Assembly (NCBI RefSeq): GCF_023656565.1
Contig: NZ_JAMOKG010000001.1
Location: forward strand, 1,629,383-1,693,382
DNA length: 64,000 nt
Direction of reading: 5' to 3'
Source: Flavobacterium tyrosinilyticum
GTDB lineage: Bacteria; Bacteroidota; Bacteroidia; Flavobacteriales; Flavobacteriaceae
Shown: one piece after another, positions 2,796-57,850 of the stretch
Layout: every line of letters begins with the position of its first letter
How positions within the stretch are numbered: the first letter of the stretch is position 1
Notes under the pieces: model-generated
The model's input: only the letters and a program-made list of their open reading frames with translations
Told to the model about the DNA's origin: nothing
The model's database searches: none
Translations under genes and position numbers: made by a program

Positions 2796-2862
2796 GCCAC
2801 TAAGGCGCGAAGGCACAAAGTTTTTTTATTTGTTTTTTATTTATGGCCACAAAGGCACAAAG
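2796..2862. repeat. octamer-phased repeat upstream of rpoN, two blocks
   Basis: Two blocks (2796-2821 and 2846-2862) of the form GCCAC-TAAGG-CGCGAAGG-CACAAAG, each followed by a T tract. Read on the minus strand they are CTTNGNGN units at 8-base spacing. The second block is the left flank of the GxxExxY gene; a matching block lies on the other side in the same orientation. Confidence 0.7.
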
Positions 2863-3306: not shown

Positions 3307-3331
3307 GCCACGAAGGCACAAAGGCACAAAG
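3307..3331. repeat. octamer repeat, right flank of GxxExxY gene
   Basis: Units CACGAAGG, CACAAAGG and CACAAAGT follow each other at 8-base spacing, in the same orientation as the block at 2846-2862 on the other side of the gene. Confidence 0.7.
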
Positions 3332-3447: not shown

Positions 3448-3473
3448 CTTAGCGTCTTTGTGCCTTCGTGGCA
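3448..3473. repeat. octamer repeat just after asnS
   Basis: Three consecutive 8-base units, CTTAGCGT, CTTTGTGC and CTTCGTGG, end 14 bases from the asnS stop codon. This block is inverted relative to 3307-3331, so transcripts crossing both could fold. Confidence 0.7.
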
Positions 3474-3487
3474 AAAAACCTTACGTA

Positions 3488-4933
3488 TTAAAACTCCGCA
3501 CTTCCAGGAGTTCTTGGGAAAGGAATTACATCTCTAATGTTTGTCATTCCAGTTACAAACAATACCAAACGCTCAAATCCTAAACCAAAACCTGCGTGAG
3601 TTGCAGAACCAAATCTTCTGGTGTCTAAATACCAGTATAACTCTTCTTTATCAATTCCAAGTTTTTCCATTTTCTCAACCAAAACATCGTAACGTTCTTC
3701 TCTTTCAGAACCACCAACGATTTCTCCAATTCCAGGGAAAAGGATATCCATTGCACGAACAGTTTCTCTTCCTGGTTCTGTGTTGTCATTCAAACGCATG
3801 TAAAACGCTTTAATGTTTGCTGGGTAATCGTATAAAATTACCGGACATTTAAAGTGTTTTTCAACCAAGAAACGTTCGTGTTCTGACTGTAAATCAGCTC
3901 CCCACTCATTGATTAGATATTGGAATTTCTTCTTTTTATTTGGAGTTGAATCTCTTAAAATATCAATTGCTTCTGTATAAGAAACGCGTTTGAAGTTGTT
4001 TTCCAATACGAAGTTCAATTTCTCTAACAAAGCCATTTCGCTTCTTTCAGCCTGTGGTTTTGATTTTTCTTCTTCAAGAAGTCTTCCTTCTAAGAATTTC
4101 AAATCGTCTTTACAGTTGTCTAAAGCATATTTAATTACATACTGAATAAAATCTTCAGCCAAATCCATGTTGTCATCAAGGTCGTTGAAAGCAACTTCAG
4201 GCTCAATCATCCAAAATTCAGCAAGGTGACGAGAAGTATTTGAATTTTCTGCTCTAAACGTTGGCCCAAAAGTATAAATCTGACCTAAAGCCATTGCGAA
4301 CGTTTCACCTTCTAATTGTCCAGAAACCGTCAAGTTGGTATGTTTTCCGAAGAAATCTTTTTTGAAATCAATGTTTCCTTCTTCATTTTTAGGAAGATTA
4401 TCCAAAGGCAAAGAAGTAACTTGGAACATTTCTCCAGCACCTTCAGCATCAGCTCCAGTAATGATTGGCGTGTTTACATAAACGAAACCTTTTTGCTGGA
4501 AATAGCTGTGAACAGCATAAGATAAAACCGAACGGACACGCATAATCGCACCAAAAGCATTTGTACGTACACGCAAGTGAGCATTTTCACGTAAAAATTC
4601 TAAAGAGTGTTTTTTAGGTTGCATCGGGAATTTCTCAGCATCAGAATCTCCAAGAATTTCAAGTTTGTTTACTTGAATTTCATATTTCTGACCTGCACCC
4701 TTACTTTCAACCAAAGTTCCAATTACAGAAACCGCTGCTCCAGTTGTGATTCTTTTTAAAGTCTCTTCTGGTGTATTTTCAAAATCAACAACACATTGAA
4801 TATTATTAATTGTAGAACCGTCATTTAAAGCGATGAACTGATTATTTCTAAAAGTTCTCACCCAACCTTTTGCATTCACTTCCTGTAACGTCGTCGTACT
4901 GTTTAATAAGTCTCTAACTTTTGTGTGTTTCAT
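3488..4933 (-). CDS. asnS: asparagine--tRNA ligase
   Basis: Charges tRNA-Asn with asparagine; class IIb aminoacyl-tRNA synthetase of 481 residues, the expected length. An N-terminal OB-fold anticodon-binding domain (about residues 15-110) precedes the catalytic core. Motif 2 ([16 protein letters not shown]) and motif 3 (GFGLGFERL) are both present, and the [12 protein letters not shown] stretch is typical of AsnRS. The first ATG is used, after an AT-rich leader. No operon partner: downstream are repeats and the GxxExxY gene. Confidence 0.97.
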
Positions 4934-19846: not shown

Positions 19847-20643
19847 TATATAATCGTAAGCGGATGAATGAAAAAGTGAATCAATAATAAAATGATTCCG
19901 GCAATGATTCGGTAGTAACCAAAAACTTTAAATCCGTTTTTAGTTAAAAATCCGATGAAAGTTTTAATTGCCAATAATGCTACAGCAAAAGCAACAATAT
20001 TCCCAATAACCAACATGTTTACTTGATCGTGAGATAATTCAAAACCAGCTTTGTAATAATCGTAGCATTTTTTTGCAGTTGCTCCCAACATAGTAGGAAC
20101 GGCTAAGAAAAATGAAAATTCTGCAGCTGTCGTTCTTGATAATTTTTGAGACATTCCCCCAACAATACTAGCTCCGCTTCGAGAAACTCCAGGAATCATA
20201 GCAATACATTGAAACAATCCGATTTTGAAAGCTTGTAAATAACTGATTTCTTGAGAGGTTTCAGCTGTATTTGGATTGTTAAACCATTCGTCTACTTTCA
20301 ATAAAATAATTCCACCGATTAAAAGTGAAATGGCGACAGTTACCGGATTTTCTAATAAGCCATCAATAAAATCGCTTAATAATAATCCTAAAACAACTGC
20401 TGGAATAAAAGCAACAAGAAGTTTAAAGTAAAAATCAAAAGTTTGAAAGAAACGTTTGAAGTATAAAATAACAACAGAAAGTATCGCGCCAAGCTGAATT
20501 ACAATAGTAAAAAGTTTAGTGAAATCGTCATGAGCGATTCCAAAAAAAGAAGAGGCAATAATCATGTGACCTGTAGAAGAAACAGGCAAAAACTCTGTAA
20601 TTCCTTCAATAATAGCAAGAACAATAGCTTGTAGTGTATTCAT
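19846..20643 (-). CDS. uppP: undecaprenyl-diphosphatase
   Basis: Integral inner-membrane enzyme of 265 residues that dephosphorylates undecaprenyl pyrophosphate to recycle the lipid carrier for peptidoglycan and glycan assembly; also called BacA, giving low-level bacitracin resistance. Both active-site signatures are intact: [16 protein letters not shown] near residue 14 and [10 protein letters not shown] near 155. About eight membrane helices. It lies between DUF3098 and truB. Confidence 0.97.
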
Positions 20644-20649
20644 TTAGTT

Positions 20650-20745
20650 TAGATTATTAGATTTTTAGACTTCTTAGACTTTTTAGATTTAAAAAGATTA
20701 ATTTAATAATCTAAAGATCTAAGAAGTCTAAGCTGTCTAAGAAAG
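20650..20745. repeat. octamer-type TTAGA/TCTAA inverted array
   Basis: Units such as TTAGATTA, TTAGATTT and TTAGACTT on the left, and TCTAAAGA, TCTAAGAA and TCTAAGCT on the right, follow 8-9 base phasing. The two halves are inverted with respect to each other and could form a hairpin between DUF3098 and uppP. Confidence 0.6.
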
Positions 20746-20746
20746 T

Positions 20747-21987: not shown

Positions 21988-22187
21988 AGTCTGCTTAAAT
22001 TATGTGGTAAAAATAATAAAGAATTTCTTTATTTAAAGTTAATAACAAACTTTTATACTTAAAAGTACAATTTAAATCTTGAATAAAGTTTTTATTTAAT
22101 CCCAAAGTGTGCAAGGTTTTGTGTGAAGTTTCTAAACAAAGCTTATTTAATCTCGCAAAGTCGCAGAGTCGCAAAGTAGAAACTATA

Positions 22188-22356
22188 GCCACAGATTAAA
22201 AAGATTCAAATGATTTTTTAAATCTTTGTAAATCCTTAATCTATGGCAGAAAATTGCGTAAAGCCTTTTGCAAGGTTCGCAAAGTAAAAAGTATAGCCAC
22301 AGATTAAAAGGATTGAAATGATTTTTAAAATCTGTGTAAGTCCTTTAATCTGTGGC
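22188..22356. repeat. tandem duplicated hairpin, GCCACAGATTAAA type
   Basis: Two copies (22188-22247, 22296-22356) each begin GCCACAGATTAAAA and end with the complementary TTAATCTRTGGC, forming stem-loops. Each is preceded by GCAAAGTA plus a short TATA-rich piece, so the duplicated block is about 108 bases and includes the octamer unit. Confidence 0.7.
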
Positions 22357-22393
22357 AAAAAAATAAAGCTTTGCATTTTGCACGTATTGTTTT

Positions 22394-22523
22394 TCAAATA
22401 TAGCCCGTGGTTTCAACCACGGGGACACAATCATGGGCACGATCCGTATTTCAGTGGATTCGATCACGGGACGAAAAATATATAAAAACGTTTCCCGTGG
22501 TTAAAACCACGGGCTATATTTGA
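22394..22523. repeat. nested palindrome with CCCGTGG arms
   Basis: The outer arms (22394-22423, 22493-22523) are inverted copies beginning TCAAATATAGCCCGTGG, and each arm is itself a palindrome (CCCGTGGTTTCAACCACGGG in the left arm). The middle holds a further GATCCG/GGATTCGATC-type pairing. Single degraded copies lie at 36842 and 36911. Confidence 0.75.
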
Positions 22524-22554: not shown

Positions 22555-22625
22555 ACTTTGCGACTCCGCGACTTTGCGAGCAAAAAAACTTAGTAGCTTA
22601 GCATCTCAGAATCTCAGAATCTTTA
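22555..22625. repeat. composite octamer array
   Basis: Eight-base units run without break from the CTTTGCGA type (three units, then GCAAAAAAA) into the CTTAG/CTCAG type (CTTAGTAG, CTTAGCAT, CTCAGAAT twice). It is the clearest case where two flavours share one phase. It ends at the stop of the downstream minus-strand gene. Confidence 0.75.
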
Positions 22626-25860: not shown

Positions 25861-26007
25861 TTTAAACACATAGAAACATAGGTTTTTTTATCCTCAAAAA
25901 GATTGTAAAAAAGAAACTAGTTTCTAAAACATAGATTTGCTATGTGTATTTGAATTAAGAGAAACGCCTTTTTACGATTGCTAAAGCTATGTTTCTATGT
26001 GTTTAAA
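25861..26007. repeat. 21-bp perfect inverted repeat with octamer units
   Basis: TTTAAACACATAGAAACATA plus G (25861-25881) is perfectly complementary to 25987-26007. The right arm is two octamers, CTATGTTT and CTATGTGT. It lies between the TonB receptor and the ModE-type gene, about 105 bases apart. Confidence 0.8.
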
Positions 26008-26575: not shown

Positions 26576-26613
26576 CTTAGAACCTTAGTAACTTAGAATC
26601 TTAGTCACTTAGA
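26576..26613 (+). repeat. octamer array in the leuS leader
   Basis: Five units, CTTAGAAC, CTTAGTAA, CTTAGAAT, CTTAGTCA and CTTAGAA, run at exact 8-base spacing up to the leuS ATG. The array lies inside the predicted 5' untranslated region. Confidence 0.8.
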
Positions 26614-26614
26614 A

Positions 26615-29479
26615 ATGAAGTACAATCCAAACGAAATTGAAGCCAAATGGCAAAAATATTGGGCAGAAAATCAAACTTTTGCAGCAAAGAATAACTCTGA
26701 AAAAACGAAACACTATGTTCTCGATATGTTTCCTTATCCATCTGGAGCAGGACTGCATGTTGGGCACCCGCTGGGTTATATAGCTTCAGATGTATATTCT
26801 CGTTTCAAAAGACATCAAGGTTTCAATGTTTTGCACCCAATGGGATACGATAGTTTCGGATTGCCAGCAGAACAATATGCGATTCAGACCGGACAGCGTC
26901 CAGAAGATACAACTCGCGTAAATATTGACGGAGGAGTAGACAAAGAAGGAAAACAAATTGCAGGTTACAGAAAACAATTAGATAAAATCGGATTCTCATT
27001 TGACTGGGCGCGTGAAGTGCGTACATCAAACCCTGATTATTACAAGCATACACAATGGATTTTTATTCAATTGTTCAACTCTTGGTATTGCAGAAAACAA
27101 GGTCAAGCTTTTGATATTTCTGAGCTTGTAACTGTTTTTGAAGAAAGCGGAAATGCATTGGTTGAGGCGGTTTGTGATGATAACGTTGCTATTTTTACTG
27201 CTGACGAATGGAAATCTTATTCTGAAGATCAAAAAGAGAAAATCTTGTTGCAATACAGAATGACGTATTTGGCAGAAACAGAAGTAAACTGGTGTCCAGG
27301 CTTAGGAACTGTTTTAGCAAATGACGAAATTGTAAACGGAGTTTCGGAACGTGGTGGCTTTCCTGTTATAAGAAAAAAAATGACACAATGGAGTATGCGA
27401 ATTTCTGCTTATGCCGAACGCTTACTTCAAGGTTTAAATGATATTGACTGGAGCGAGTCAATTAAAGAATCTCAAAGAAACTGGATCGGGAAATCGGTTG
27501 GGGCTTTGGTGACTTTTAATGTGAAAAATCATGATGAAGTAATCGAAGTTTTCACTACTCGTCCTGATACTATTTTTGGAGTTACTTTTATGACTTTGGC
27601 GCCAGAACATGATTTGGTTGCTAAAATTACAACTCCAGAACAAAAAGAAGCTGTTGAAGCGTATATCGAAAAAACAGCAAAACGTTCGGAGCGTGAGCGT
27701 ATGGCCGATGTAAAAACCATTTCAGGAGTATTTACTGGAGCTTATGCGGAGCATCCGTTTACAAAAGAAGCTATTCCGGTTTGGATTGGTGATTATGTTT
27801 TGGCAGGCTATGGAACTGGTGCTGTAATGGCAGTTCCTTGCGGAGACGAAAGAGATTATGCTTTCGCTAATTTCTTTAAAGGTCGGAATGGAATGCAGGA
27901 AATCAAAAATATCTTCGCGAATGTTGATATTTCTGAAGCGGCTTATGGATCTAAAGACAATGTTGAAATCGCAGCTTCTGATTTCTTAAACGGATTAAAT
28001 TACAAAGACGCGACAGCAAAAGCGATTTATAAGTTAGAAGAAATCGGACAAGGAAAAGGAAAAACAAATTACCGTTTGCGTGATGCTGTTTTCTCTCGTC
28101 AGCGTTATTGGGGTGAACCGTTCCCAGTTTATTATGTGAATGGATTGCCTAAAATGATCGATACACAGCATTTGCCAATTATTTTGCCAGAAGTAGAGAA
28201 ATATTTACCAACAGAAGACGGTTTGCCTCCATTAGGAAACGCGGCAGTTTGGGCTTGGGATACAAAACAAAACAAAGTTGTTAATACAGATTTAGTTGAT
28301 AATGTTTCGATTTTTCCTTTAGAATTGAACACTATGCCAGGATGGGCAGGAAGTTCATGGTATTGGATGCGTTATATGGATGCGCACAATGAAAATGAAT
28401 TTGCAAGCAAAGAAGCTTTAGCTTACTGGGAAAATGTAGATTTATATATTGGAGGAAGTGAGCACGCAACAGGTCACTTGTTGTATTCTCGTTTCTGGAA
28501 CAAATTCTTAAAAGACAAAGGTTTTGCTCCGACCGAAGAGCCATTCAAAAAACTGATTAATCAGGGAATGATTTTAGGGACTACAGCTTATGTTTACAGA
28601 TTAGAAGGTACAAATACTTTTGTGTCTAAAAATAAAATTGAAGGTCAAAATGTACAGCCAATTCGTGTTGATGTTCATTTTGTTAATTCTTCAGATGAAT
28701 TAAATATCGAAAAGTTCAAAGCTTGGAGAGAAGATTTCAATACAGCAGAATTTATTTTTGATGAAAACGGAAAATACATTGTAGGTCGTGAAGTAGAAAA
28801 AATGTCTAAGTCATACTATAATGTGGTAACTCCAGATGATATTTGTGCTGAATATGGAGCTGATACATTACGTTTATACGAAATGTTCTTAGGTCCGTTA
28901 GAGCAAGCAAAACCTTGGAATACTGCTGGTATTTCTGGAGTATTTGGCTTCTTGAAAAAATTGTGGAGATTGTATTTTGATGATAACGGTTTAATCGTAA
29001 ACAACGACGAACCAACAAAAGACAACTTGAAATCATTACATAAAACGATCAAAAAAGTAGCAGAAGATATCGAGAATTTCTCTTTCAACACTTCGGTTTC
29101 TCAATTTATGATTTGTGTAAACGAATTGTCTTCTCAAAACTGTCATTCAAGAGCGATTTTAGAACCGTTAGCAATTTTGGTTTCACCATACGCACCTCAT
29201 ATTGCAGAAGAATTATGGTCGCAATTAGGACATACAACTTCGATTTCTGAAGTTGCGTTCCCGATTTTTGATGAGAAACATTTAATTGAAACCAATAAAG
29301 AATATCCAGTTTCTTTCAACGGAAAAATGCGTTTCACCATCGAATTGCCTTTGGATTTAACCAAAGAACAAATCGAAGAAATCGTAATGAAAGACGAAAG
29401 AACACAAAAACACTTAGACGGAAAAACGCCAAATAAAGTGATTATTGTTCCTGGAAAAATCATCAACCTTGTAGGTTAA
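26615..29479 (+). CDS. leuS: leucine--tRNA ligase
   Basis: Charges tRNA-Leu; class Ia synthetase of 954 residues. Bacterial LeuRS are usually 800-880, so this is the longer Bacteroidota form, with extra sequence around residues 165-205 and 640-710. The HIGH motif is HVGHPLGY (near residue 47), the editing domain (CP1) covers about 235-450 with TTRPDTIFGVTF, and the KMSKS loop is EKMSKSYYN near 730. The anticodon-binding and C-terminal domains follow. It is transcribed alone and ends in a hairpin terminator. Confidence 0.98.
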   Translation: MKYNPNEIEAKWQKYWAENQTFAAKNNSEKTKHYVLDMFPYPSGAGLHVGHPLGYIASDVYSRFKRHQGFNVLHPMGYDSFGLPAEQYAIQTGQRPEDTTRVNIDGGVDKEGKQIAGYRKQLDKIGFSFDWAREVRTSNPDYYKHTQWIFIQLFNSWYCRKQGQAFDISELVTVFEESGNALVEAVCDDNVAIFTADEWKSYSEDQKEKILLQYRMTYLAETEVNWCPGLGTVLANDEIVNGVSERGGFPVIRKKMTQWSMRISAYAERLLQGLNDIDWSESIKESQRNWIGKSVGALVTFNVKNHDEVIEVFTTRPDTIFGVTFMTLAPEHDLVAKITTPEQKEAVEAYIEKTAKRSERERMADVKTISGVFTGAYAEHPFTKEAIPVWIGDYVLAGYGTGAVMAVPCGDERDYAFANFFKGRNGMQEIKNIFANVDISEAAYGSKDNVEIAASDFLNGLNYKDATAKAIYKLEEIGQGKGKTNYRLRDAVFSRQRYWGEPFPVYYVNGLPKMIDTQHLPIILPEVEKYLPTEDGLPPLGNAAVWAWDTKQNKVVNTDLVDNVSIFPLELNTMPGWAGSSWYWMRYMDAHNENEFASKEALAYWENVDLYIGGSEHATGHLLYSRFWNKFLKDKGFAPTEEPFKKLINQGMILGTTAYVYRLEGTNTFVSKNKIEGQNVQPIRVDVHFVNSSDELNIEKFKAWREDFNTAEFIFDENGKYIVGREVEKMSKSYYNVVTPDDICAEYGADTLRLYEMFLGPLEQAKPWNTAGISGVFGFLKKLWRLYFDDNGLIVNNDEPTKDNLKSLHKTIKKVAEDIENFSFNTSVSQFMICVNELSSQNCHSRAILEPLAILVSPYAPHIAEELWSQLGHTTSISEVAFPIFDEKHLIETNKEYPVSFNGKMRFTIELPLDLTKEQIEEIVMKDERTQKHLDGKTPNKVIIVPGKIINLVG

Positions 29480-29785: not shown

Positions 29786-29857
29786 CTTCGCGACTTCGCG
29801 TCTTTGCGAGCAAAAAAACTCGCGTTCTTTGCGTAAATCTTCGCGCTCTTCGCGGTT
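29786..29857. repeat. octamer array, CTTCGCG type
   Basis: Units such as CTTCGCGA, CTTCGCGT and CTTTGCGA run at 8-base spacing and are followed by a looser set (TTCTTTGCG, CTTCGCGC, TCTTCGCGG). It lies in the 505-base leuS-hydrolase gap, otherwise filled by the two palindromes and terminators. Confidence 0.7.
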
Positions 29858-35268: not shown

Positions 35269-35955
35269 ATGGGATCAGGATATTTAATTATTGCTGGAGC
35301 TATAATGCTGTTCAGCTGGCTGGTAAGCTCGCAGCTGAAAAGTAAATTTGAATTGTATTCGAAGTTGCAATTGAGAAACGGAATGAGCGGAAGAGAAATT
35401 GCTGAAAAAATGCTTGCCGATAACGGAATCACAGATGTTCGTGTTATTTCGACACCAGGTCAGTTAACAGATCATTATAACCCTTCAGATAAAACAGTGA
35501 ATTTAAGTGAAGCAGTTTACAACCATCGCAATGCAGCTGCAGCGGCCGTTGCAGCACACGAATGCGGTCACGCTGTACAGCATGCTATTGGTTACGAATG
35601 GCTGACTATGCGTTCTAAGTTAGTGCCTATTGTTAGCGTTGCTTCAAATTATGTACAATGGATTTTAATTGCAGGAATTTTAATGATTAAAGTTTTTCCG
35701 GGATTATTATTAATCGGAATCATCATTTTTGCTGCAACGACTTTGTTCTCGGTTATTACGCTTCCGGTAGAATATGATGCGAGTAATCGCGCTTTGGCTT
35801 GGCTAGAAAACAAACACATGCTTACGCAAGAAGAGCAGGCTGGAGCAAAAGATGCCTTAAAATGGGCGGCAAGAACGTATGTAGTAGCAGCAATTGGTTC
35901 AATCGCAACGTTGTTGTACTATATATCAATTTATTCTGGAAGTAGAAGGAACTAA
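35269..35955 (+). CDS. YugP-type zinc metallopeptidase
   Basis: Membrane protein of 228 residues in the neutral zinc metallopeptidase family (PF04298). Zinc site HECGH (residues 97-101, a variant of HExxH) follows an Ala-rich helix; three more membrane segments lie after it, and LPVEYDASNRALAWLE is the conserved third-ligand region. Substrate unknown. It stands alone and ends in a strong terminator. Confidence 0.92.
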   Translation: MGSGYLIIAGAIMLFSWLVSSQLKSKFELYSKLQLRNGMSGREIAEKMLADNGITDVRVISTPGQLTDHYNPSDKTVNLSEAVYNHRNAAAAAVAAHECGHAVQHAIGYEWLTMRSKLVPIVSVASNYVQWILIAGILMIKVFPGLLLIGIIIFAATTLFSVITLPVEYDASNRALAWLENKHMLTQEEQAGAKDALKWAARTYVVAAIGSIATLLYYISIYSGSRRN

Positions 35956-35996
35956 TTTGATAATTGAGATAATTAGTCAATTAGATAATTTATAGC

Positions 35997-36035
35997 AAAC
36001 CCGACAGATTTTTAAAATCTGTCGGGTTTTGTTTT
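35997..36035 (+). terminator. terminator after zinc peptidase gene
   Basis: A perfect 15-16 bp stem, AAACCCGACAGATTTT with its complement, followed by T. It is the same stem type as the one at 982-1012. Confidence 0.85.
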
Positions 36036-36055
36036 ATAATGACTTTTTGATCAAT

Positions 36056-36120
36056 TGTCAGACTGAGCGAAGTCGAAGCCCTTATGTCTAATTAAGCCTT
36101 CCACTTCGCTCAGGATTACA
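36056..36120. repeat. degenerate palindrome, CTGAGCGAAG-arm type
   Basis: The left arm TGTCAGACTGAGCGAAGTCG is found again inverted near 36100 (CCACTTCGCTCAGGATTACA) with several mismatches. The usual CTCGACAAAG core is missing. Confidence 0.6.
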
Positions 36121-36179
36121 GTAGGATATTATTCGTTTTCAAGAATTATCTAATTATCAAATTGACACATTATCTAATT

Positions 36180-36650
36180 CTAAAGCTGTATCTGTCTATC
36201 AATCTGCTGATCCAGTGAGATAAAGGTTTCAGTTCTCGAAACTCCTTCAATTGCTTGGATTTTGTTGTTCAAAAGCTGCATTAAATGTTCGTTGTCTCGA
36301 CAGATAATTTTGATCAGAACCGACCAGTTTCCTGTGGTATAATGACATTCTAAAACTTCGGGTATTTTTCTAAGTTCTTTTACGGCTTCTGAGTTTCTGG
36401 AAGCTTTATCCAAATAAACTCCAACAAATGCCATGGTATTGTAGCCTAGAACTTTTGGGTTTACAGTAAACTTAGAACCAGAAATTACGCCCGATTGTTC
36501 CAGTTTTTTTAATCTCTGATGAATCGCGGCTCCAGAAATTCCGATTTTATTGGCGATTTGCAAAATCGGTTTTCGAGCATCTTCCATTAGGTATCGAAGA
36601 ATCTCTTTGTCGATTCCGTCAATTTCAATTAAGAGGGAGTTGATTTTCAT
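36180..36650 (-). CDS. Lrp/AsnC-family transcriptional regulator
   Basis: 156 residues: an N-terminal helix-turn-helix (about 12-60; IDKEILRYLMEDARKP, IANKIGISGAAIHQRLKKLE) and a C-terminal RAM ligand-binding domain (about 70-150). Members sense amino acids such as leucine and act as octamers. No amino-acid gene adjoins it, so the regulon is unknown. It begins downstream of a repeat-filled gap. Confidence 0.92.
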   Translation of the reverse strand: MKINSLLIEIDGIDKEILRYLMEDARKPILQIANKIGISGAAIHQRLKKLEQSGVISGSKFTVNPKVLGYNTMAFVGVYLDKASRNSEAVKELRKIPEVLECHYTTGNWSVLIKIICRDNEHLMQLLNNKIQAIEGVSRTETFISLDQQIDRQIQL

Positions 36651-43673: not shown

Positions 43674-43718
43674 AAATAAAAAACTTTGTGCCTTAGTGTC
43701 TTCGTGGCAGACTTTTTT
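43674..43718. repeat. 45-bp direct repeat, left copy
   Basis: Identical over 45 bases to 44380-44424. It contains the octamers CTTTGTGC, CTTAGTGT and CTTCGTGG, then GCAGACTTTTTT. Confidence 0.92.
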
Positions 43719-44379: not shown

Positions 44380-44424
44380 AAATAAAAAACTTTGTGCCTT
44401 AGTGTCTTCGTGGCAGACTTTTTT
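44380..44424. repeat. 45-bp direct repeat, right copy
   Basis: Identical to 43674-43718. Its terminal T tract supplies the first bases of the tyrS -33 TTTG. Confidence 0.92.
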
Positions 44425-44471: not shown

Positions 44472-45767
44472 ATGAAGAATCTAGTTGAAGAATTAAAATG
44501 GCGCGGGTTATACCATGATAGTATGCCTGGAACGGAAGAACAATTGCTAAAAGAAGCAACCACTGCCTATATCGGTTTTGATCCAACGGCAGATTCACTG
44601 CACATCGGAAGTATGGTTCAGATTATTTTATTGGTTCACTTAAAGAATTTTGGTCACAGACCGATTGCTTTAGTAGGTGGAGCAACAGGAATGATTGGTG
44701 ACCCTTCTGGTAAATCTGATGAAAGAAACTTGCTTGATGAAGTAGCTTTGGCTAAAAATGTAGCGGGAATCAAAAGTGTTTTGTCTCGTTTCTTGGATTT
44801 TAATTCAACCGAAGCAAATGCGCCAGTAATGGTGAATAACTACGATTGGATGAAAGAATTCTCTTTTATTGATTTTGCACGTGAAGTTGGAAAAAGAATC
44901 ACTGTAAATTATATGATGGCTAAAGATTCTGTAAAAAAGAGATTTAGCGGAGAAGGTGAGGGAATGTCTTTTACAGAGTTTACATACCAATTAATTCAAG
45001 GTTACGATTTTTATCATTTATATAAAAACAATAATTGCATTCTGCAAATGGGTGGTTCTGACCAATGGGGTAATATTACCACAGGAACAGAATTAGTGCG
45101 CAGAATGGGAGGAGAGAATGCCAAAGCGTATGCTTTAACAACGCCTCTAATTACAAAAGCGGACGGATCTAAATTTGGTAAATCTGAAGGTGGAAATGTT
45201 TGGTTGGATGCTGATAAAACTTCTGTATACAAATTCTACCAATTTTGGGTAAACACAACAGATGTTGATGCAGAGAAATACATTAAAATCTTTACTTTCT
45301 TAGATAAAGAAACTATCGATGGATTAATCGAAGAGCACAAAGCTGCTCCACATTTGAGAGTTTTACAAAAGAAATTGGCAGAAGAAATCACTGTTTTTGT
45401 TCATAATCGTGAAGAATTAGAAAAAGCAATTCAGGCTTCAAATATTTTATTCGGAAATTCAACTGCCGAAGATTTGAAGAAATTGGATGAAGCGACTTTT
45501 TTAGAAGTTTTTGATGGAGTTCCGCAAGCTGAAATCGCAAAAGCTGATTTAGAAAACGGATTGGATATCATCACGGTTTTAAACGAAAAAACAGGTTTCT
45601 TTAAATCAAATGGAGAAGCGAGACGTGCTTTGACAGCAAACTCAATTTCTGTAAATAGAGAAAAAATCAAAGAAGATTTTGTTTTAACAGCAAATGATTT
45701 AATTAACGATCAGTTTGTTTTGTTGCAAAGCGGAAAGAAAAATTATTTTGTAATCCGCGTTGTTTAA
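44472..45767 (+). CDS. tyrS: tyrosine--tRNA ligase
   Basis: Charges tRNA-Tyr; class Ic synthetase of 431 residues from [13 protein letters not shown]. The TTG-started longer reading begins inside the promoter and is rejected. The HIGH motif is HIGSM (near 45), tyrosine-binding GSDQWGNI is present, and KMSKS appears as KFGKS. A C-terminal S4 RNA-binding domain (about 365-431) has the typical NGEARRAL. It is transcribed alone and ends in a hairpin. Confidence 0.98.
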
Positions 45768-45771
45768 AAAC

Positions 45772-45812
45772 GTTTAACTCTTTAATCGGTTAATTGTTTA
45801 ATCGATCTGTAA
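45772..45812. repeat. octamer array after tyrS
   Basis: Units TTTAACTC, TTTAATCG, GTTAATTG and TTTAATCG run at 8-base spacing directly after the tyrS stop. Confidence 0.6.
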
Positions 45813-52192: not shown

Positions 52193-52319
52193 CGAGATTA
52201 AATTACGGTTAACACCATTTTTTAAAGGTTCTTTTGTTAGTATATTTACCCTGTGAAATAAGAAATATCGAATGTTTAATGAAGAAGTTTCGATATAAAA
52301 ATCTCAATTTTTGCTATTT

Positions 52320-53003
52320 ATGAAAAAAACACAAACTAAGATTTTATTAGTTGACGACGAACCAGATATCTTAGAAATCGTTGGCTATAACCTTGCTCAG
52401 GAAGGCTATCAGATTGTTACAGCTTCTAATGGAAAAGATGCTATAGCAAAAGCACAGAAAGAGCTGCCAGAATTAATCATTATGGACGTGATGATGGCAG
52501 AAATGGACGGAATGGAGGCTTGCGAGCATATTAGAAAAATTCCTGAATTAAATAATGTTATCATAACATTTCTTACAGCAAGAAGCGAAGATTATTCTCA
52601 AGTAGCTGGTTTTGATGCAGGTGCCGATGACTATATTACTAAGCCAATTAAACCAAAATTATTGGTCTCAAAAGTAAAGGCGCTGTTAAGAAGGTTAAAA
52701 GAACAAGAAGTTGTTACAGATACTTTAAATGTAGGCGGAATCGAGATTAATCGTGAAGAATACAAAATCATAAAAGGCAATGTAGAAATTGCTTTGCCAA
52801 GAAAAGAATTCGAATTATTTTATCTATTGGCTTCAAAACCAGGGAAAGTTTTTAAAAGAGACGAAATCCTAGATAAAGTGTGGGGTAATGAAGTTGTAGT
52901 TGGAGGAAGAACAATCGACGTTCACATCAGAAAGCTGCGCGAAAAAATAGGCGAAGATCTTTTTAAAACTATAAAAGGTGTAGGCTATAAATTTGAAGTT
53001 TAG
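52320..53003 (+). CDS. PhoB-like response regulator (OmpR family)
   Basis: 227 residues from MKKTQTKILLVDDE; the TTG-started longer reading is rejected. Receiver domain with phospho-acceptor Asp56 (LIIMDVMMAEMDG) and Lys in ITKPIK, then a winged-helix Trans_reg_C domain (about 132-227; LPRKEFELFYLLASKPGKVF, GGRTIDVHIRKLREKIG). With the histidine kinase gene 253 bases downstream it resembles PhoBR, and the porin next to them supports phosphate control, but the name is inference. Own terminator follows. Confidence 0.85.
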   Translation: MKKTQTKILLVDDEPDILEIVGYNLAQEGYQIVTASNGKDAIAKAQKELPELIIMDVMMAEMDGMEACEHIRKIPELNNVIITFLTARSEDYSQVAGFDAGADDYITKPIKPKLLVSKVKALLRRLKEQEVVTDTLNVGGIEINREEYKIIKGNVEIALPRKEFELFYLLASKPGKVFKRDEILDKVWGNEVVVGGRTIDVHIRKLREKIGEDLFKTIKGVGYKFEV

Positions 53004-53013
53004 ATTTTAAGAT

Positions 53014-53045
53014 GCTAAGGTTCTAAGATACTAAGTTGCTAAGTG
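53014..53045. repeat. octamer array, CTAAG type
   Basis: Units CTAAGGTT, CTAAGATA, CTAAGTTG and CTAAGTGA run at exact 8-base spacing after the PhoB-like gene. Confidence 0.7.
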
Positions 53046-57160: not shown

Positions 57161-57300
57161 GGTTCTAAGTTTTGGAGTTGCTAAGTTACTAAGATGCTAA
57201 GTCTCTAAGCTCAAAGATTTTCTATTTAAAAAAAGAAAGCCGAACTATAAGTTCGGCTTAATCTTAGAATCTCAGCGTCTTAGCATCTTAGAAACTTAAT
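57161..57300. repeat. CTAAG octamer arrays on both sides of a terminator
   Basis: At 57161-57213 units CTAAGTTA, CTAAGATG, CTAAGTCT and CTAAGCTC run at 8-base spacing; at 57256-57300 the complementary CTTAGAAT, CTTAGCAT and CTTAGAAA type runs to the gene end. A GCCGAAC/GTTCGGC hairpin terminator (57231-57261) lies between. Confidence 0.75.
57231..57261 (-). terminator. terminator after Lys/Ala-rich gene
   Basis: AAGCCGAAC pairs with GTTCGGCTT around a TATAA loop; on the minus strand a T-rich run follows. Confidence 0.75.
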
Positions 57301-57850
57301 CTTGAATATACGTTTTATTTCCATTTTTGTTAATATAGTATTTACCGCCTCTTGGTCCAGTATATACTTTTTTACCATTGTATTCGCCAGTTACTTTGTC
57401 TGGAACAGATGGTGCTTTTTCGTTAGTTTCTTTTAAAGTTTTTGTGGCCGATTTTTTAGCAGCAGTCGCATCTTTTTTGGCAGCGTCAGCTTTTGCGGTC
57501 GATTTCTTCGCATCGGCTTTTGCTTTGTCAGCAGTAGTTTTGGCTTTATCAGATTCTACAGTAGCTTTTTTTGCATCGGCTTTAGCTTTTGCAGCTTCCT
57601 TATCAGCGGTTTTTTTTGCAGCGTCAGCAGATTCTTTCTTGGCTTTTGTTGAAGCTGCTTTTGCATCGTCAGCGGCCTTTTTCGATTTTGTGGCTTCTTT
57701 TTTTGCGTCAGCCGAAGCTTTGTCCGCACTTGCTTTGGCTTTTTTTGCCGAAGTTTCTGTTTTGCTTTTTGCAGTCTTTGCAGTTGTTTCCTGAGCATAA
57801 AAATTAGAAGAGAAAGCAACCATTAAACAGAACAATACTAATTTTTTCAT
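57296..57850 (-). CDS. Lys/Ala-rich secreted protein with PBCV basic-adaptor domain
   Basis: 184 residues: a Sec signal ending at NFYAQ, then about 115 residues of Lys/Ala heptad-like repeats (AKKATADKA and related) with histone-H1- or late-embryogenesis-like composition, and a C-terminal domain YNGKKVYTGPRGGKYYINKN typical of PF08789 (PBCV-specific basic adaptor). It probably binds an acidic polymer outside the cell, such as DNA or polysaccharide; that is inference. The antisense 57378-57794 reading is a composition artefact. Confidence 0.8.
   Translation of the reverse strand: MKKLVLFCLMVAFSSNFYAQETTAKTAKSKTETSAKKAKASADKASADAKKEATKSKKAADDAKAASTKAKKESADAAKKTADKEAAKAKADAKKATVESDKAKTTADKAKADAKKSTAKADAAKKDATAAKKSATKTLKETNEKAPSVPDKVTGEYNGKKVYTGPRGGKYYINKNGNKTYIQD

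Follow-up and report, generated by a model that had tools for sequence, protein, structure and literature searches.

Intergenic arrays of 7- and 8-nucleotide direct repeats at gene ends in Flavobacterium

The short tandemly repeated repetitive (STRR) heptamers of heterocystous cyanobacteria are degenerate heptamer arrays in intergenic DNA, with few unit types. The arrays described here share with them degenerate heptamers between genes; the unit types of STRR are fewer than those of Flavobacterium. The closest description found in the open-access literature is that of the TAACTGA direct repeats of Beggiatoaceae, Cyanobacteria and five Bacteroidetes (MacGregor, 2015; PMC4679880). In the parts of that paper drawn on here, the repeats stand mostly in forward orientation just upstream of start codons and sometimes in reverse just past stop codons, indels between two close strains come mostly in 7-nt steps, and essential genes are among the bearers. 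That system has one unit sequence, and its main genome contains few related heptamers (PMC4679880). The Flavobacterium arrays resemble it as short-period intergenic direct repeats that stand just before start codons and read towards them (41 of 176 arrays lay within 20 bp of a start, and CTTWG orientation is kept). They differ from the system as given there in their many unit types, their periods of 7 and 8 nt, their frequent outward-facing pairs and the exchange of unit type at orthologous sites. The tandem TAACTGA doublet, TAACTGATAACTGA, had 0 copies in the genome studied here and at least one copy in 8 of 61 genomes of the genus. The first-pass annotation of this DNA knew of no description of such arrays, which holds only in part: heptamer arrays before start codons had already been published in the TAACTGA account. 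REP elements, BIMEs and REPINs with RAYT transposases, as presented in the portions of the literature used here (PMC3116915, PMC2817692, PMC3733652), are also dispersed, hairpin-forming, inverted intergenic pairs; unlike them, the Flavobacterium arms are direct-repeat arrays, and none was found in the 3.2-3.3 kb around each of the four Y1 matches of this genome.

The sequence analyzed, referred to as the window, was the 64,000-nt stretch C1:1629383-1693382 of the Flavobacterium tyrosinilyticum genome (G000; 5.29 Mb, seven contigs). Octamer arrays had been proposed at 18 coordinates in gaps between genes, and at 17 of these three or more units about 8 nt apart were seen by eye; the site at 25987 had only two units, and the site at 20650 mixes spacings of 8 and 9. 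The gene at 20643 is presumably uppP and the gene at 26615 is taken to be leuS. The features were as follows, with the basis of each in brackets.

2796-2820, minus strand: TGC-family arm with a GTGGC end (sequence)
3307-3331, minus strand: TGC-family left arm, paired with 3448 (sequence, pair calling)
3448-3472, plus strand: TGC-family right arm, 15 bases before the stop of 3488-4933 (sequence, pair calling)
20644-20746, minus strand: gap with a predicted hairpin (MFE -28.3, z -6.3) between the DUF3098 gene and the downstream minus-strand gene (folding)
22152-22176, minus strand: CGA left arm, CTTTGCGA units on the minus strand (sequence; TRF period 8)
22556-22580, plus strand: CGA right arm of three units, pairing with 22152-22176 about 380 nt away (sequence)
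22589-22625, plus strand: CTTAG arm of four units plus a truncated unit containing the stop of the minus-strand gene ending at 22623 (sequence)
25987-26002, plus strand: CTATGTTT type, two units only, weak (sequence)
26576-26614, plus strand: CTTAG leader of five units directly before the leuS start codon at 26615 (sequence, relatives)
29786-29810, plus strand: CGA-family arm (sequence)
35953-35990, minus strand: AATTAG 3' arm between the stop codon and a terminator-like hairpin, AAACCCGACAG..CTGTCGGGTTTT (sequence, relatives)
36144-36179, plus strand: AATTATC partner arm of 35953-35990 at the 3' end of the convergent gene (sequence, relatives)
43684-43708, plus strand: TGC-family arm (sequence)
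44390-44414, plus strand: TGC-family arm (sequence)
45774-45805, minus strand: TTTAATCG-type array directly past the stop at 45767 (sequence)
53008-53043, minus strand: CTAAG 3' array beginning 5 positions past the stop of 52311-53003 (sequence)
57176-57209, minus strand: CTTAG left arm, CTAAG on the plus strand (array calling)
57261-57291, plus strand: CTTAG right arm, 53 nt from the called left arm and 4 bases from the stop of 57296-57850 (array calling)

Two types had been thought to join in phase at 22555-22625. CTTTG stands at 22556 and CTTAG at 22589, a difference of 33 nt, so the two types are out of phase by one base. Other hairpins stand between the two CGA arms at 22152-22176 and 22556-22580. 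A GCCACAGATTAAAAGGATT...AATCTGTGGC-like hairpin is present twice in the region 22189-22360, with an apparent 9-nt period in its arm; similar 9-periodic arms (ACCATATAAGTGATATAAG, GCAGATTTAGCAGATT) were present in relatives. In five related loci (L064, L074, L075, L077 and L083) about 300 bp extra, resembling a small minus-strand gene, lay between the arms that match 35955-36180. An Rfam search of the window at gathering score gave no match at any array. The sole match was Flavo-1 RNA (RF01705; 5010-5087, minus strand, 75.5 bits), which lies off the arrays, and a known Rfam RNA was therefore rejected as their identity.

The periodicity test proposed in the first-pass annotation was run on the window and sixty 20-kb stretches, together 1.26 of the 5.29 Mb, comprising 880 gaps and 170 kb, with gene calls from an ORF-based hexamer script of our own instead of a standard tool. 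Strong windows were defined as 24-base windows with at least 17 matches and were compared with 10 dinucleotide shuffles. Intergenic DNA contained 98 strong windows at lag 8 (11.1 shuffled) and 108 at lag 7 (16.6 shuffled), with 16 at lag 6 (16.5 shuffled), 20 at lag 9 (12.7 shuffled) and harmonics at lags 14, 16, 21 and 24; three N runs raise every lag, in the shuffles as well. The excess at lags 7 and 8 with little at 6 or 9 places the array period at 7 or 8 nt. The predicted lag-8 excess over shuffled controls was thus found, both in this genome and in other Flavobacterium loci. Plain averaged autocorrelation was blunter (z 16.6 at lag 8, 12.7 at lag 7, 11.6 at lag 6, 8.7 at lag 9, and about 11-12 at lags 2 and 21). 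In the whole genome CTTWGNNNCTTWGNNNCTTWG was found 83 times forward and 102 times reverse, compared with 24 and 2 for the same pattern reversed in reading.

Unsupervised calling, from which gaps with N were dropped, gave 176 arrays in 130 of the 880 gaps, 90 at lag 7 and 86 at lag 8. The idea of one period shared by different units stood insofar as several unit sequences have the same period; a period of 8 is not unique, as lag 7 was equally common. The numerous unit types and the two periods bear out the view that the arrays are not copies of one mobile element, and a single mobile family for all of them was rejected. The set is also not made up of open arrays throughout, since part of it forms defined repeat families: CGA arrays had three units in 37 of 37 cases (three being the floor of a caller with a minimum of three units), CTTAG arrays five in 42 of 63, and CTTTG arrays five in 10 and four in 9 of 24. 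Long, almost pure arrays of 7- or 8-nt units were seen at C1:329537 (built of AGATTCTG units), C1:68191, C2:625923 and C2:797391, two of them broken by N runs; these four are candidates for length-variable loci or for assembly trouble.

Arrays were concentrated at gene ends, with 116 of 176 within 20 bp of one where 71.5 would be expected from random placement in their own gaps. Convergent gaps had 2.11 arrays per kb, codirectional gaps 1.08 and divergent gaps 0.31, a density that tracks the number of 3' ends per gap. Orientation followed the genes. CTTWG pointed towards the start codon, and CWAAG was read after the stop, in 80 of 92 intergenic arrays and in all 52 of those within 19 bp of a gene end; one additional CTTWG array was intragenic. 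Other unit types had the same skew, C over G before starts and G over C after stops. For octamers the counts were 33 to 0 at stops and 14 to 1 at starts (3 ties each), and for heptamers 22 to 1 at starts and only 24 to 13 at stops, where the polarity-breaking heptamers (13 of 39 arrays) were mostly of the AATTCC type.

Over 1.26 Mb from G000 and 1.2 Mb from relatives, neighboring CTTWG arrays less than 300 bp apart formed 28 outward pairs, no inward pairs and 11 same-strand pairs (19 outward pairs in the former and 9 in the latter, some of them orthologous); the five inward neighbors of G000 were spaced 568 to 2030 nt. The core type was correlated between paired CTTWG arms (r 0.95). The order of the three-base spacers was not matched beyond shuffling (33 vs 31.0 ± 2.0), so exact pairing is not selected, and the idea that one arm is as a rule a snap-back copy of its partner was rejected. 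By eye, single arm pairs such as the one at C1:818724 resemble near copies. Among neighboring arrays of any type in the same gap, 22 of 46 pairs were inverted-similar, against 6% at random; across a gene the figure was 2 of 23, near the random level, and pairing between the arrays at the two ends of one gene was rejected on this basis. Many arms were solitary rather than paired. In CTTWG arrays the A-run was mostly on the inner side, and the T-run of a pair lay inside it, on the loop side and not after it. The final unit of CTTAG arrays was often truncated (e.g., CTTAA).

Across species, the lag test was applied to 78 of 80 leuS loci (L124 and L127 left out), using 20-base windows with at least 15 matches. 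The 24 close Flavobacterium loci contained 61 strong windows at lag 7 and 69 at lag 8 vs about 3 shuffled, with a smaller excess at lag 5 (18 vs 5.6), and 34 other Flavobacterium-group loci contained 24 and 27 vs about 3.5. In 20 leuS loci of other genera no excess was found at lags 7 and 8 (3 and 1 vs about 3). With a strict unsupervised caller, 17 of 60 Flavobacterium-group loci had a lag-7/8 leader and 0 of 20 others did. The CTTAG triple CTTAGNNNCTTAGNNNCTTAG was found in 25 of 395 genomes of the phylum: 15 of the 24 from the genus, with up to 87 copies (it was missing from the other 9), and 10 of the 371 outside it, with 1 to 10 copies each. Three consecutive copies of the pure heptamer AATCTAA gave 39 matches in G000, many from a few long arrays, and one copy each in two genomes among the 119 from the family's other genera. 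The closest named relatives by leuS were Flavobacterium species. One locus from a record titled Rhizobium sp. (L087, CALQAH020000001.1) has a leuS 80% identical to that of G000 and is probably mislabelled.

At leuS, at uppP and at C1:863475 arrays persist in many species while the unit type differs. The leuS leader array directly adjoins the start codon and, depending on the species, is made of CTTAG, CTTTG, CTCAG or heptamer units, or is missing. Among 30 relative leaders, comprising the 24 nearest loci (L061-L084), taken whole, and six (L124, L100, L107, L113, L085 and L088) added since an array had already been seen there, five units were kept in 20 of the nearest 24. Bases 3 and 5 of the unit had been put forward as the most constant; in the leuS leaders they are bases 1, 2 and 5 of the CTTAG unit instead. 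In 17 distinct leaders C and T occupied positions 1 and 2 in 68 of 68 units, as the caller required, and G occupied position 5 in 66 of 68, which it did not require; position 3 was T in 61 and C in 7. The leaders differed by 0.40 in spacer columns and by 0.51 in the flank. Solitary leaders such as this one hold the rhythm without a partner arm. In L078, L082, L090, L102, L108, L109 and L117 an extra element, ATGACTTGAG..GCGAAAGCATGA.., stands just before leuS, between the array or gap and the start codon; several copies contain the two-codon frame ATG ACT TGA.

The gap at C1:863475 contained a CTTTG pair in G000, the same pair with one more 8-nt unit in G409, a CTTAG pair with a CTTAG leader in G400 and G402, a CTTTG pair with a CTTAG leader in G398 and a heptamer pair in G419; six other genomes were without an array by eye. 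Paired sites here have the unit type changed in both arms. The difference between G000 and G409 was the one case of a unit-step length change between relatives. In close species the uppP gap contained TTTTAGA heptamers, arrays of 8-9 nt or CAGTTTT heptamers. Some array-less species have short gaps at these compared sites (C1:863475 and uppP), and in several the uppP gap was about 20 bp or shorter. Among 45 uppP gaps of at least 45 nt (shorter gaps were dropped), the predicted fold had z below -2 in 23, namely 22 of 39 from the Flavobacterium group and 1 of 6 from other genera. The 17 Flavobacterium-group gaps that did not reach this value included most of the TTTTAGA gaps, and by these predictions a stable fold is not general and belongs to only part of the arrays. 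In 32 of 34 gaps pairing was lower over the final 18 nt before the start than elsewhere, possibly in part as an end effect of folding the gaps alone.

Persistence was counted over 400 kb and three relatives, where the comparisons are not independent (10 gaps at 5' ends and 13 at 3' ends). At 5' sites an array was present in both genomes in 21 comparisons where 1.8 were expected, and the unit type differed in 6 of them; by gap, it was kept in at least one of the three relatives at 8 of 10, and at 3 of 10 it was of another type in one relative. At 3' sites both genomes had an array in 10 of 41 comparisons (2.4 expected), 2 with another type, and an array was still there in one or more relatives at 7 of 13 gaps; turnover of 3' arrays is fast. 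In eight ungapped orthologous arrays the core differed at 3 of 145 positions and the spacer at 12 of 63, these eight being what remained of 41 comparisons after 33 with identity below 75% or poor flanks were dropped. Of 10 large indels with matching flanks, one was a whole 83-bp arm pair at C1:1083819, present in G000 and missing from G400; at this one clean empty site no target duplication was evident.

The genome contained four Y1 transposase (PF01797) matches, at C1:1612925, C1:1303045, C2:1260445 and C1:1271805 (L261-L264). Within the 3.2-3.3 kb surrounding each there was no CTTWG triple and no lag-7/8 array, and RAYT-driven REPs were rejected for this reason; by eye, each match was adjoined by non-periodic palindromes or hairpins. 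The C2:1260445 match has two TGA within the matched stretch. A CCCGTGG hairpin at 22401-22520 of the window resembles the hairpin beside C1:1303045.

In F. johnsoniae, translation starts do not use Shine-Dalgarno sequences, and leader structure tunes initiation, according to the portion of the published account used here (PMC6847099). Array leaders had a fold energy of -3.5 kcal/mol (n = 43) vs -5.9 kcal/mol for 300 of 771 controls, mainly because of composition: compared with their own shuffles they were only slightly less structured (z +0.30 ± 0.12). A strict promoter lay within 160 bp upstream of 2 of 43 start-side arrays vs 87 of 771 controls. Most start-side arrays are therefore not demonstrated as promoter-proximal leaders, and that role was rejected as a general one. 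At 3' ends an arm precedes a separate terminator-like hairpin in both gaps examined: the AATTAG arm at 35955, and C1:864639, where the hairpin is kept in four genomes and the preceding array varies. The arrays would resemble intrinsic terminators as hairpins at 3' ends in transcribed DNA, and AATTCC arms in L063 and L068, which have a T-run behind them, themselves have the look of terminators. They are unlike them in that the T-runs of CTTWG pairs lie inside the pair and, in the two gaps just named, a separate terminator-like hairpin stands after the arm. Spaced Rho sites seem less likely; several unit types have no C in the unit.

The arrays have in common their period, their position at gene ends, their polarity, the agreement of type within a gap and, at some sites, the exchange of type in place. 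Our preferred reading, held tentatively and derived from sequence comparison, is that they may form a class of intergenic or intercistronic 7- or 8-nt direct-repeat elements, strongest in Flavobacterium, that evolve in concert and serve as hairpins and leaders at transcript boundaries. In the typical paired form, arms of the same type would face outward to the flanking genes and could pair imperfectly into a hairpin in the interval from a stop codon to the following gene; arms without a partner are found as well. The arrays may be made and homogenized by replication slippage in whole-unit steps together with exchange between arms and loci, as suggested by the unit-step change between G000 and G409, the long near-pure arrays and arm types that agree without exact order. 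The rather fixed unit number of CGA and CTTAG arrays speaks against free slippage. Arrays would be kept where two transcripts or cistrons are separated, because their density follows 3' ends, arms precede separate terminator-like hairpins, array leaders are less structured and the last 18 nt are less paired. On the start side, the G-poor last units may provide an unpaired leader for translation without Shine-Dalgarno sequences. A bolder version, which we consider improbable, is a boundary code that keeps rhythm and not sequence: hairpins would shift register in steps of complete units, and in this way mask or free the leader of the following cistron and shut off the preceding one. Since every arm would be able to base-pair with every other arm of its type, 3' arms and 5' leaders of different messages could likewise pair in trans by type.

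Two alternatives are unlikely to about the same degree. Different unit types might suit different putative readers, which would fit the G kept at position 5 of the leuS units against the 0.40 and 0.51 differences of spacer and flank, the conserved core and variable spacer of the ungapped orthologous arrays (3/145 vs 12/63) and the rather fixed unit number. It would be hard to reconcile with the many unrelated unit sequences that replace one another at one site, and RNA from 3' ends would contain the units in reverse complement. Alternatively, the arrays could be non-autonomous mobile elements of a MITE- or REPIN-like kind, whose inverted ends happen to be direct repeats and which lie near gene ends because the ancestral gaps were short. 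The presence of the whole arm pair at C1:1083819 in G000 and not in G400 favors this, as do families of rather fixed length occurring as both arms, the depletion in divergent gaps and the short gaps at these sites in some array-less species. However, that site has no evident target duplication, no mobilizer was found (in the 3.2-3.3 kb around each Y1 match there were different hairpins but no array), and the holding of one site by different types in many species is unexpected for independent insertions.

A neutral by-product of polymerase slippage, with 7-8-nt units favored by the polymerase and surviving only where harmless, appears somewhat less probable than either. Heptamers are reportedly the commonest long simple repeats in most genomes, for which polymerase contact has been offered as the explanation (Mrazek, 2007, as cited in PMC4679880), and long near-pure arrays do exist. 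The polarity relative to genes already strains this view, and so do the conserved core with its variable spacer, the persistence of arrays at start codons between species and the 20 array-free loci of other genera. Least probable is a translational stop in three frames, in which one stop per unit and a period not divisible by three would close all frames within three units. All three frames were indeed stopped in 45% of 75 3'-end arrays vs 16% shuffled, but the 41 arrays at 5' ends were equally enriched (49% vs 13.5%), so periodicity alone explains these stops; by eye, stops are scarce or absent in the CAAAG, GTTTCAA, AATTCC, CGA and TGC types.

If the rhythm of these elements is conserved while their sequence is exchanged, ordinary motif and homology searches would miss them. 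In that case the genus would also provide a natural series of site-matched replacements, at leuS and uppP, for asking what leaders without Shine-Dalgarno sequences need. The same sites could reveal the course of concerted evolution in bacterial intergenic DNA.
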